Assembly: GCA_001801885.1 (NCBI GenBank)
Contig: MGYU01000105.1
Span: forward strand, 261-32,496
DNA length: 32,236 nt
Direction: 5' to 3'
From: Gammaproteobacteria bacterium RIFCSPLOWO2_12_47_11
GTDB taxonomy: Bacteria > Pseudomonadota > Gammaproteobacteria > Eutrophobiales > Eutrophobiaceae
Below, in pieces: positions 3,470 to 8,000 of the stretch. Numbering within the stretch: position 1 is the first letter of the stretch; every line of letters starts with the position of its first letter. The translations under genes and the position numbers were made by a program. A model generated the notes under the pieces. The model did no database searches. It was not told the DNA's origin and worked only from the letters and a program-made list of their open reading frames with translations.

Positions 3470-4252
3470 TTAAAACGCGTTTTTAAGATTGCGGATTTTG
3501 GTAAATACATCAAGATCACTGGATTTTTCCATATTAATGGTTCTGCGAATATCACGGCTATGAAGACGTAGAAAAGGATTGGTTTTTTTCTCCAGTACAA
3601 GTGTAGTAGGAATCGTTGGTTCCCCGGCAGCACGTATTTTTTCAACTTCCCTTGCCCGTATATACAGATCACGGTTATGAGGTTCTACAGTCAACGCGAA
3701 GCGCGCATTGGCTTGGGTGTATTCATGCGCACAATACAGTCTGGTTTCATCCGGCCATTTCATAATTTTATTTAAAGAATGCCACATCTGTTCCGGTGTA
3801 CCTTCAAACAAACGCCCACAGCCCATTGCAAATAAAGTGTCGCCCACAAAGGCAATATGTTCACTTTCAAAATGATAAACAATATGGCCTGAAGTATGAC
3901 CCGGAGTGTCATATACTCTGGCATTAAAGCGACCGAACTGGAAAATATCCCCTTCGTGCAGCTCAATATCAATCCCTGGTATCATTGACGCTTCCGCAAG
4001 TGGTCCGGCAATCAGGCAACCGGTGTTTTGCTTCAACTCCAGATTGCCACCCGCATGATCCCAGTGATGGTGTGTATTCAGGATATGGGTCAATTTCCAG
4101 TTTTTTATGGCCAGTGCTTTTTCTATAGCATTAACATCCGGGGTATCTACTGTGGCTGTCAGGTCCTTTTCAGTGTCGTGCAACAGAAAGCCATAATTAT
4201 CCGTAAGACACGGAAACATATAGGTTTCAAGAGAATTCGCATGAATGGTCAT
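3470..4252 (-). CDS. gloB: Hydroxyacylglutathione hydrolase (glyoxalase II)
   Basis: This 260-residue metallo-beta-lactamase-fold enzyme hydrolyses S-D-lactoylglutathione to D-lactate and glutathione, the second step of methylglyoxal detoxification. The dinuclear metal motif THHHWDH is at 60-66. Further ligands are in TPGHTSGH and in FVGDTLFAMGCGR, and YCAHEYTQ gives the last His. The C-terminal part (from about 165) is the glyoxalase-II helical domain that binds glutathione, with the typical KKTNPFLR element. Length fits the family (about 250-260). It stands alone, divergent from the metallopeptidase gene. It has no signal peptide, so it is cytoplasmic. Confidence 0.96.
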   Translation of the reverse strand: MTIHANSLETYMFPCLTDNYGFLLHDTEKDLTATVDTPDVNAIEKALAIKNWKLTHILNTHHHWDHAGGNLELKQNTGCLIAGPLAEASMIPGIDIELHEGDIFQFGRFNARVYDTPGHTSGHIVYHFESEHIAFVGDTLFAMGCGRLFEGTPEQMWHSLNKIMKWPDETRLYCAHEYTQANARFALTVEPHNRDLYIRAREVEKIRAAGEPTIPTTLVLEKKTNPFLRLHSRDIRRTINMEKSSDLDVFTKIRNLKNAF

Positions 4253-4428: not shown

Positions 4429-5466
4429 ATGGCCCGCAATAAATCAAAAAAATATTCATGGTCAACGCTTGGAGATGAAGCCTTGCTGAACCTCAGGTTC
4501 TGTGATTTGAGGTTGAAGATCATAAAGGGTACACCACTTGAGGAACGAATATCCCAGCTTTATGAGGAATTACATAGGCGCCATCTGAAGTTTCGTCCCC
4601 ATTGCTGGCTATCGGAAGAGTGGTTCTCTCCTGACGGGGTCCCGGGTATTGCGATTCCGTTCTATCTGGCACATCCACGTCTCGCTAAACTGGAATTCAA
4701 GCAGATGTTTGATGTAGAAGGAGGCAATGCCCGCTGGTGTATGCAATTGTTACGGCATGAAGCAGGCCATGCTATTGATACTGCCTACAGATTGCATCGG
4801 AGAAAACGCTGGCGAAAGGTATTTGGTTCGTACACCAAACCCTATCCTTCCTATTACACACCCAATCCAAAAAGCAAAAATTATGTTTTTCATCTGGATT
4901 GGTGGTATGCACAGAGTCATCCGGCTGAAGATTTTGCTGAGACCTTTGCAGTATGGCTGCAGCCAGGGTCCAACTGGCACAAGGCATACCCGGGTTGGTC
5001 AGTAATAAAAAAACTTGAGTATATGGATGAGCTTATGAGCTCAATCAGAAATCTGTCTCCAGCGGTCAGGCTGCGCGAGAAAGTAGAACCACTATCGGCA
5101 AATAAAAAAACATTGCGCGAATATTATGAAGAAAAACGTGCCTTTTACGGGATCAATATCCCCGAGGTATATGACGGTGAGTTAATGAGACTGTTCCCTG
5201 GTAAGCCGTTAAACTCTGCTAAAAGGCAATCTGCCGCAGCCTTTCTCCGTCAAATAAGGCCGGAAATTTCACAGCTATGTGCTCGAAGTGTTGGTGAATC
5301 ACCCTACGTTATTGCGCAGATCCTGCAGGATATGACAATTCGCTGTCGGGAAATGAAACTCTATGTGACCCGGGCTAAAGAAGAAGTAAAGATAGAAGTT
5401 GCTATATTCGTCTCTCTGCAAACACTGGATTATATACATAAATATCGCCACACATTGCCAGTATGA
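4429..5466 (+). CDS. Putative zinc-binding metallopeptidase (zincin)
   Basis: This 345-residue cytoplasmic-looking protein has a zincin active site HEAGH at 110-114 and a downstream acidic motif HPAEDFAETFAVWL (164-177) that should give the third zinc ligand. The residues between (about 128-160) are aromatic and proline-rich, as I recall for the uncharacterised family of putative zinc-binding metallopeptidases. There is no signal peptide or membrane segment. The last codons overlap the ATP-grasp gene by 4 nt (ATGA), which implies coupled synthesis and a joint task. No good Shine-Dalgarno sequence precedes the ATG. The substrate is unknown. The coupling to a peptide-ligase-like enzyme suggests a peptide or peptide-like metabolite, but that is inference. 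Confidence 0.85.
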   Translation: MARNKSKKYSWSTLGDEALLNLRFCDLRLKIIKGTPLEERISQLYEELHRRHLKFRPHCWLSEEWFSPDGVPGIAIPFYLAHPRLAKLEFKQMFDVEGGNARWCMQLLRHEAGHAIDTAYRLHRRKRWRKVFGSYTKPYPSYYTPNPKSKNYVFHLDWWYAQSHPAEDFAETFAVWLQPGSNWHKAYPGWSVIKKLEYMDELMSSIRNLSPAVRLREKVEPLSANKKTLREYYEEKRAFYGINIPEVYDGELMRLFPGKPLNSAKRQSAAAFLRQIRPEISQLCARSVGESPYVIAQILQDMTIRCREMKLYVTRAKEEVKIEVAIFVSLQTLDYIHKYRHTLPV

Positions 5467-6491
5467 AGAAGCTTCGCGTAGTTGTTCTTATGCATGAAGA
5501 TCTGGTTCCTCCTGAATCGATGGATGGTTATTCAGATAAAGAAATTACAGAATGGAAAACAGAATTTGATGTAGTAACCGCGCTGCAAGATATTGGCCAT
5601 GATGTAAAATCATTAGGCGTTCACGATGATCTGGGTGTGATCAGGGAAAATATTACCGAATGGAAACCCCACATTACCTTTAATCTACTGGAAGAGTTTC
5701 ATGGTTTATCGTTATATGATTACCATGTTGCAAGCTATCTGGAACTGATGAAACAGAGCTATACTGGCTGTAATCCGAGAGGACTGATGTTGGCTCATGA
5801 CAAGGCGTTGAGCAAAAAACTACTCTATTTCCATCGTATCAATGTACCCAGGTTTCTGGTCATTCCAATCGGTAAAGTACCTGCGGTGCCAGTACGGCTT
5901 AAATTTCCGTTGTTTGTAAAATCATTGTGTGAAGATGGTTCTTACGGGATTGCCCAGGCCTCGGTTGTTTATAATGAAGAAAAATTCAGGGAACGTGTGT
6001 CCTATCTACATGAGCAGCTTGCGACCCCGGTAATTGTTGAGGAATACATTGAAGGACGTGAACTGTATATTTCAGTCACCGGTAATAAGCGTTTGCAAAC
6101 TTTTCCTGTCATAGAATTAAAATTCGGCAAGAAGCGGGATGATACCCTTATGATTGCAACGTCCAAGGTGAAATGGGATCCGGATTACCAAAAGAGGCAT
6201 AAGATTGATACGACAGTTGCCGAAGATTTGACAGCAGATCTCCGGCAAAAAATTGCTAAATTATCCAAGCGTATTTATCGAATACTCGGCCTCACGGGTT
6301 ATGCGCGAATCGATTTACGCCTGAAGGATAATGATGAAATCTATGTGCTGGAGGCGAACCCCAATCCCGATATTGGTTATGGCAGTGAGATATCCTGTGC
6401 AACTGAGGCAGTCGGGATTGAATATGGAGAGTTATTACAACGTATAATCAACTATGGATTGCGTTATGATCCTGAATCGAGGCTGGCCTGA
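5463..6491 (+). CDS. ATP-grasp ligase related to D-alanine-D-alanine ligase
   Basis: This 342-residue protein has the ATP-grasp layout: an N-terminal alpha/beta region (1-100), a central lid (FVKSLCEDGSYGIA, 151-164; IVEEYIEGREL, 191-201) and a C-terminal metal/ATP site (ARIDLRL, 281-287; VLEANPNPDIG, 295-305). The Ddl resemblance lies in the N-terminal SYTGCNP (99-105), the NPNPD-type end and the overall order. It is unlikely to be the cell-wall Ddl itself, because its partner is a metallopeptidase rather than mur/fts genes and the substrate-binding N-terminus differs. It should form an amide bond using ATP. It overlaps the metallopeptidase by 4 nt and shows no Shine-Dalgarno of its own, so it is probably translated by coupling. 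Confidence 0.87.
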   Translation: MKKLRVVVLMHEDLVPPESMDGYSDKEITEWKTEFDVVTALQDIGHDVKSLGVHDDLGVIRENITEWKPHITFNLLEEFHGLSLYDYHVASYLELMKQSYTGCNPRGLMLAHDKALSKKLLYFHRINVPRFLVIPIGKVPAVPVRLKFPLFVKSLCEDGSYGIAQASVVYNEEKFRERVSYLHEQLATPVIVEEYIEGRELYISVTGNKRLQTFPVIELKFGKKRDDTLMIATSKVKWDPDYQKRHKIDTTVAEDLTADLRQKIAKLSKRIYRILGLTGYARIDLRLKDNDEIYVLEANPNPDIGYGSEISCATEAVGIEYGELLQRIINYGLRYDPESRLA

Positions 6492-6614: not shown

Positions 6615-6953
6615 ATGCCTGCATACGATTATTTTTGTGAGGCCAATGGACAAACAGTCGAAGTTGTCCATACGGTCAATGCTTCATTAAAAACCTGGGG
6701 TGAAGTTTGTTATGTTGCCCGGATTCCACTGGGGGACACTGACCCGTTAGCGCCCGTGAGGAAGGTAATTTCCGTTCCGGCCATCGCAATCACTACCTCT
6801 GATTCAAAACTCAAGGAGGTCGGATTTACCAAGCTGGTCAAGCGGGATAAAGGTGTTTATGAAAACGTGACCGCGCTCGATCATGAAAAGCGATATATGA
6901 AAGCAGGTGATCCCTCTTCCGTGCCTGACTTCAAAAGCAAGATTGGAGATTAA
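6615..6953 (+). CDS. FmdB-like small protein with degenerate zinc ribbon
   Basis: The 112-residue protein begins MPAYDYFCEANGQTVEVVH, the layout of FmdB-family regulatory zinc ribbons (MPxYxYxCxxCG). The second cysteine of the first knuckle is Asn here (C8, N11). The second knuckle keeps only one cysteine (TWGEVCYVA). The segment before KVISVPAIAI matches the family's VxKLISAPA region. Two cysteines are too few for the usual four-Cys zinc site, so it either does not bind zinc or uses other ligands. The C-terminal half (about 65-112) is polar and unrecognised. It converges with the hydrolase gene 19 nt downstream. Role unknown. Confidence 0.7.
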   Translation: MPAYDYFCEANGQTVEVVHTVNASLKTWGEVCYVARIPLGDTDPLAPVRKVISVPAIAITTSDSKLKEVGFTKLVKRDKGVYENVTALDHEKRYMKAGDPSSVPDFKSKIGD

Positions 6954-6972: not shown

Positions 6973-7914
6973 CTAATCCCATTCCAGTTCTACGAATGCC
7001 CTTGACACATTAGTCCTGTGTTGTTGTTCGAATAACAGCCATTTATCCTTCTCACCCTGGCCAACAGTCTCGATGGCTTCTTCCATGAACTGGCCATTGG
7101 CAATCGCCTGCTTTGTTTCATCGAATAGATCAGTCAGATATTCCTGCTGGGCTGCCATAGCGTCTTGCCAGTTACTTGCCGGGGCGCCATGGCCGGGAAT
7201 AATAGTGGAGACTTCGAGTGTTTTAAATATTTCCATAACAGCCAGCCAGCCTTTCAGGCTGCCGTCAATTACCGGAATACGTTCACGAAACAGCAGGTCT
7301 CCGGTCCACAGGGTGCCAGTCGATTCATCCAGTATGGTCAGATCGGTATAGGTATGTGATTTTTGATAAGCTGTTAATAACAGTGTCCTGTTACCTAGAT
7401 CAATTGACAATGTATCGGAAACGGTTTTAGTGGGTCCGATGATTGAATCCTCTGACGGTGATGCACCCAGATCATCTCTGAATTCTTCAAGAAAGAATCC
7501 CATGTTTAGCTCTATGGCATCTGTTAGTTTTACGTGACCAACAAATTCAGGCTGATCCTCAACAAATACCAGGTTGCCAAGTACATGATCAAAATGGATG
7601 TGGGTATTGATCACGTAACATACCGGTTTGCCGGTGAACATCCGGATGGCGTCAAGCAGTTGTTGTCCGGTCGATATTGATCCGCCAGTATCAATCACGG
7701 CAACACAGCGATTACCAGCAATGAAACCTATATTGGCAATATCATCATGACCTGGCTCGCCAAAACCGGCATGTATGCCTCGATGCAGGTAATTACCCGG
7801 TGCAATTTCAACCAGGTTAAATGCTGATTCACTTCCTGCATCCGCAGACAACAGAAAACCGTAAATGCAGATTGAATAAAATATGCTGGGGAAAATCTTG
7901 CCGGTTTTCTTCAT
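6973..7914 (-). CDS. Exported metallo-beta-lactamase-fold hydrolase (quinoprotein-relay / SoxH-like type)
   Basis: Taking the ATG at 7914 gives 313 residues starting MKKTGKIFPSIFYSICIYGF, a good Sec signal peptide ending near SADAGS. An in-frame TTG at 7947 would add 11 residues and spoil it. The metal site THIHFDH is present, with later ligands in SHTYTD, WTGDLLF and PGHGAP. The stretches ANIGFIAGNRCVAVIDTGGS and DGSLKGWLAVM resemble the periplasmic MBL hydrolases annotated as quinoprotein relay system zinc metallohydrolase 2 or SoxH-like. No PQQ-dependent dehydrogenase or sox gene lies in this window, so the role is open. It follows the TetR gene on the same strand with about 86 nt between them and is probably under the same operator. 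Confidence 0.82.
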   Translation of the reverse strand: MKKTGKIFPSIFYSICIYGFLLSADAGSESAFNLVEIAPGNYLHRGIHAGFGEPGHDDIANIGFIAGNRCVAVIDTGGSISTGQQLLDAIRMFTGKPVCYVINTHIHFDHVLGNLVFVEDQPEFVGHVKLTDAIELNMGFFLEEFRDDLGASPSEDSIIGPTKTVSDTLSIDLGNRTLLLTAYQKSHTYTDLTILDESTGTLWTGDLLFRERIPVIDGSLKGWLAVMEIFKTLEVSTIIPGHGAPASNWQDAMAAQQEYLTDLFDETKQAIANGQFMEEAIETVGQGEKDKWLLFEQQHRTNVSRAFVELEWD

Positions 7915-8000
7915 TAATTGTAACGGTGAAATTATATTGTTATTCAATCAGGCATCTTCTGAATAATATATTAATCAAGACACATGGATTTTGCATACGT

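Follow-up and report, generated by a model that had tools for sequence, protein, structure and literature searches.

The window, i.e. the whole 32,236-nucleotide stretch of DNA analysed, carries two overlapping genes on its forward strand. The first (4429..5466, + strand, ATG start) encodes a zincin peptidase of 345 amino acids that we assign, as a divergent member, to Peptidase_Mx, and the second (5463..6491, + strand, ATG start) encodes a putative amide ligase of 342 amino acids from the Ddl clade of the ATP-grasp enzymes. The stop codon of the former and the start codon of the latter share the 4 nt ATGA (5463..5466, + strand), suggesting translational coupling. The original prediction of a HEAGH zincin and a Ddl-like ATP-grasp enzyme encoded with a 4-nt overlap was confirmed, with both open reading frames at the positions given. 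The peptidase occurs as a single copy in the source genome (2.35 Mb, 92% complete), and a search of this genome with the ligase returned only the ligase itself and the canonical Ddl. Two genes for metallo-β-lactamase-fold proteins, one of them glyoxalase II-like, flank the pair on the opposite strand (3470-4252 and 6973-7947) and are syntenic in two related loci (L007 and L010).

The peptidase scores 32.6 bits against the Pfam model PF15887 (Peptidase_Mx; cut-off 27), which also matches all 86 of its relatives (E ≤ 0.01). Residues 109-115 read RHEAGHA, and in the zinc-binding and catalytic motif HEAGH (residues 110-114; 4756..4770, + strand) H110, E111, G113, and H114 are invariant among the 86 relatives. 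E171 in the segment SHPxEDFAETFA (4939..4941, + strand) is likewise invariant among them, its equivalent in canonical Peptidase_Mx is an invariant Glu, and it is likely the third zinc ligand. Because H110, E111, H114, and E171 are invariant in all 86 relatives, the peptidase is probably active. A profile comparison with the zinc-ribbon Peptidase_Mx proteins (E = 9.4e-12, 97.4% probability, ~90 columns) aligned the core RHExGH ... FG ... YAxSHPxEDFAExFA with the canonical family. The N-terminal zinc ribbon of canonical Peptidase_Mx (PF10005), found e.g. in L307 and L308, gave no match in the window peptidase, which possesses N- and C-terminal regions of its own beyond the Peptidase_Mx core; judged by sequence, the missing ribbon marks it as a separate branch of Peptidase_Mx. 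Its AlphaFold model is confident (pLDDT 86.8), and a fold search retrieved weak gluzincin-type matches (E of 0.03 or worse), among them 4l7a, itself a putative zinc metallo-peptidase, which are informative on the fold class only. Searching solved structures with the peptidase sequence returned nothing credible. No N-terminal signal or hydrophobic segment was seen by eye, and on this basis the peptidase is taken to be putatively cytoplasmic.

The ligase matches the Pfam model Dala_Dala_lig_C with 96.7 bits, as opposed to 19.8 bits for RimK, and its best score among the NCBIfam Ddl/Van models listed (124.9) is far below the cut-off of 243. Its AlphaFold model has a pLDDT of 90.2, and Ddl enzymes were the best Foldseek matches (E = 2.5e-24). 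The ATP/Mg residues K114, E193, R282, D284, E297, and N299 are invariant in the ligase and its 77 relatives and align with those of the Ddl from the same genome; E297 and N299 lie in the E-A-N stretch of the Mg/ATP site (6351..6359, + strand; n = 78). For the remainder of the active site, we take the GEDG, SHSL, and omega-loop positions to have the roles generally known for Ddl enzymes. In the ligase family the GEDG loop is lost, and the omega loop is replaced by a family-specific segment, IAT..K.KWD..YQ (6153..6191, + strand), in which I231, A232, T233, K237, and Q243 are invariant (n = 78) and which differs from the Ddl of the same genome. The SHSL segment is also replaced: at the position contacting the D-Ala carboxylate in Ddl, the window ligase has S308-E309 (6384..6389, + strand), the family has E and D (each in 68 of 78 sequences), and the Ddl of the genome has S and L. 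R199 and R286 are further residues particular to the family (n = 78). Given the replaced D-Ala-site residues, the invariant segment of its own, and these two arginines, the ligase has likely changed its substrate relative to Ddl. The same genome contains a canonical ddl (L089) in an ftsA-ftsQ-ddl-murB-murC cluster, which, together with the replaced D-Ala-binding residues, rules out a housekeeping Ddl identity for the ligase. The plain Ddl role that had been named as the case against the original prediction was thus not encountered.

A scan of named genomes provided 350 relatives of the peptidase, the best 80 of which were combined with 5 from a phylum scan. These 85 loci (48-68% identity) belong to Planctomycetota, Acidobacteriota, Nitrospirota, Pseudomonadota, and one Myxococcota MAG. 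The ligase gene lies directly 3' of the peptidase gene on the same strand in 84 of them, and the 85th (L061) stops at a contig edge; L056, L066, and L068 have a broken or incomplete ligase frame. In a larger and partly redundant set (at least 350 bits), 200 of 208 loci are paired, 118 of these 200 with the exact -4 overlap and 185 with a gap of at most 60 nt. The evolutionary distances of peptidases and ligases are correlated (r = 0.90, versus 0.09 or less after shuffling). Since the peptidase tree groups largely by phylum, the pair is mostly a long-standing resident of its lineages, with a patchy presence. The original prediction placed similar pairs in other proteobacteria; Pseudomonadota loci do exist, but this range was too narrow, as the closest loci found are mostly from Planctomycetota, Acidobacteriota, and Nitrospirota.

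Both families were also sought in the same genomes, with a presence threshold of ~330-350 bits. In Planctomycetota, 45 genomes contain both, none only the peptidase, 5 only the ligase, and 196 neither (p = 5e-44); the corresponding numbers in Acidobacteriota are 27, 2, 2, and 168 (p = 9e-29), both p values being from a Fisher test that ignores shared ancestry. The ligase was found without a detected peptidase in G373, G506, G803, and G851, and in G754 and G857 the only ligase match is a weaker one (~272 bits). When 33 genomes were picked for split genes, divergent genes, or a partner not yet found, the ligase was present in all 33, as a fragment only in G863. Where the two genes are separated in Acidobacteriota, they are convergent (G901) or lie 4 kb (G740) or 18 kb (G860 and G877) apart. 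Such co-occurrence without linkage would be difficult to account for unless the two proteins shared a function. Homologues do co-occur, and the fixed adjacency and the co-occurrence strongly support what had been predicted, namely that peptidase and ligase function as a pair with no assigned role. The pair is present in 10 of 37 genomes of the family to which the window belongs, in ~21 of 118 Nitrospirota genomes, in 57 of 199 genomes of one family of large-genome Pseudomonadota, and, with divergent copies included, in ~58 of 246 Planctomycetota genomes.

A divergent peptidase subclade (~160-310 bits) was observed in Planctomycetota (L130-L146) and Acidobacteriota (L288-L297). Its peptidase genes are mostly unlinked from the ligase gene or convergent with it, and the genomes often have extra Ddl-like ligases, so peptidase and ligase may be less strictly partnered in this subclade. 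Several Acidobacteriota genomes with a divergent peptidase have tandem ligases.

The original prediction had proposed looking for a third conserved gene, such as a second ATP-grasp enzyme, a precursor peptide, or a transporter. Clustering of all open reading frames within 8 kb revealed none shared across phyla besides the pair and antisense artefacts, and neither a transporter nor a further maturation enzyme is conserved across phyla within this distance. No small precursor frame is shared across phyla within 800 nt; matches there were at the lineage level and mostly parts of neighbouring genes. Conservation of the neighbourhood reflects lineage synteny only, e.g. in Nitrospira, in Pyrinomonadaceae, and in the relatives of the window. 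One candidate partner in the window, a 112-amino-acid protein (6615-6953) whose start weakly matches an FmdB-like zinc ribbon, is kept in close relatives only (72-73% identity), together with the whole neighbourhood; as this entire neighbourhood is syntenic in the closest relatives, the gene does not count as evidence, and it was rejected. Mobile or viral carriage was rejected as well (no peptidase match in viral contigs or plasmids, and no PHROGs match), as was an anti-phage defence system (PADLOC models match neither protein).

Zinc-ribbon Peptidase_Mx genes also have amide ligases as neighbours. In 6 of 14 such loci (L300, L301, L307, L308, L312, and L313), representing about three independent lineages, they adjoin two genes, one for a circularly permuted ATP-grasp-Alpha-E protein (CP-ATP-grasp-Alpha-E) and the other for a transglutaminase-DUF2126 protein, which is a putative amidoligase; the arrangement is head-to-head in L307. 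These loci resemble the Anbu operons, for which protein tagging has been proposed (PMC6376114), in having ATP-grasp, Alpha-E, and transglutaminase genes. The pair has in common with them a related peptidase adjoining ATP-grasp or amidoligase genes, but it has no zinc ribbon, Alpha-E, transglutaminase, or DUF2126, and its ligase is not circularly permuted. Going by these gene neighbourhoods, the Peptidase_Mx superfamily is tied to amide-ligase systems twice, through two ATP-grasp types, and this double association favours an action of the peptidase on the ligase product. It also suggests a general role for an uncharacterised peptidase superfamily.

We propose, with a probability of about 0.5, that the two enzymes form a self-contained module in which one amide-linked product is both made and trimmed. 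ATP-grasp enzymes form amide bonds via an acyl phosphate; accordingly to this chemistry, the ligase would activate a carboxylate with ATP and then join it to an amine. The product would not be D-Ala-D-Ala and would more likely be a peptide or protein to which an amino acid or short peptide has been attached. Cleavage of this product or its immediate precursor by the zinc peptidase would remove or resize what the ligase has added, so that the pair would control how much of the modification is present or how long it is. In this scheme we infer a substrate common to both enzymes, their opposing action (from the enzyme classes only), and a peptide or protein as the product. That the pair makes, trims, or recycles a peptide or modifies a protein end, as originally suggested, is possible, and the sequence is compatible with more than one substrate. 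A tentative and rather doubtful extension is a reversible peptide tagging conserved in Planctomycetota, Acidobacteriota, Nitrospirota, and part of the Pseudomonadota: a single residue or a short chain would be attached by the ligase to the end of a protein or peptide, and the zincin inherited along with the ligase would take this addition off again.

The nearest functional parallel to the make-and-trim module is RimK/RimB, a co-transcribed ATP-grasp amino-acid ligase and reversing peptidase that form a two-gene core with a patchy distribution (PMC11957791, PMC7343187); RimB removes the glutamates added by RimK and stimulates RimK (PMC11957791). The two-gene core, the combination of an ATP-grasp ligase with a peptidase, and the patchy distribution are found here too, with reversal of the product presumed by analogy. 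However, RimB is a retropepsin-like aspartic protease whereas the peptidase of the pair is an HExxH zincin, and RimK belongs to the RimK clade whereas the ligase belongs to the Ddl clade, such that neither protein is a family member. The pair may still work like RimK/RimB, with unrelated enzymes in both positions. In Pseudomonas, the RloA/RloB/RloC operon likewise encodes a protease together with an ATP-grasp partner (PMC12239564). It differs in having a secreted protease and, in addition, a membrane protein resembling transglutaminases; neither feature is conserved with the pair.

Instead of opposing each other, the enzymes could act in sequence, the peptidase cutting a host protein or peptide and the ligase capping or cyclising the fragment, in a graspetide-like manner with the precursor encoded elsewhere. 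The position of the peptidase as the first gene of the operon fits this order, and such a route has been proposed for graspetide branches 7 and 8, in which ATP-grasp genes are found with peptidases and without a precursor (PMC8939145). These branches share with the pair the peptidase, the ATP-grasp enzyme, and the precursor-less locus, and are set apart, by description only, through a different ATP-grasp clade. We consider the sequential route unlikely, given the absence of a precursor-like small frame near the pair, the lack of a conserved transporter or other maturation enzyme, and a ligase that is Ddl-like in both sequence and fold.

The usual substrates of Ddl-clade enzymes are two free amino acids, which they join, and ligases occur alongside degrading peptidases in pathways such as those of NAGGN and cyanophycin. 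The ligase might accordingly produce a free di- or tripeptide, serving as an osmolyte, store, or signal, that the peptidase degrades, with no protein target involved. This is unlikely: the peptidase, a large gluzincin extended at both its N and C termini, is not of a known dipeptidase type, and no enzyme making an amino acid is conserved next to the pair.

The Ddl/Van fold of the ligase and the shared logic of a ligase with a zinc peptidase also bring to mind VanA/VanX, i.e. a cell-wall system in which an alternative D-Ala-D-X ligase is accompanied by a peptidase removing D-Ala-D-Ala. The likeness to Ddl and VanA extends to the fold and the ATP/Mg residues, but the GEDG loop and the substrate residues at the D-Ala site are not retained, the scores are far below the Van and other Ddl cut-offs listed in NCBIfam, and the partner is an HExxH Peptidase_Mx and not of the VanX/VanY type. 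With a canonical ddl already in the ftsQ-murB cluster and no vanH-, vanS-, or vanR-like genes conserved near the pair, such a system is very improbable. Chance neighbours, or a housekeeping Ddl beside an unrelated protease, would account for adjacency alone and can practically be dismissed in view of the co-occurrence tables, the fixed order in 84 of 85 loci, the ligase in 33 of 33 genomes, and the non-Ddl residues.

No published description of the pair was found in the literature searched; the 2009 amidoligase survey lay outside it, and a prior mention is possible. By analogy, the pair would be a further, seemingly undescribed variant among the known ligase-peptidase pairs. Systems that pair a ligase with a peptidase, RimK/RimB among them, tune ribosomes and stress tolerance, and the present pair would represent a separate solution that draws on different enzyme families. 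Identity between phyla is ~50%, and well-studied groups (Nitrospira, Rhodopirellula) are among those that carry the pair.

Another association of ATP-grasp genes was noticed in Planctomycetota (L181-L189 and L193-L195), where a gene for a lysine 2,3-aminomutase-like radical SAM protein adjoins two tandem Ddl-like ATP-grasp genes (e.g. positions 6584-10496 of L188). One of the tandem genes in L188 is fused to a GNAT acetyltransferase domain. These loci possibly encode a pathway for peptides containing β-amino acids.
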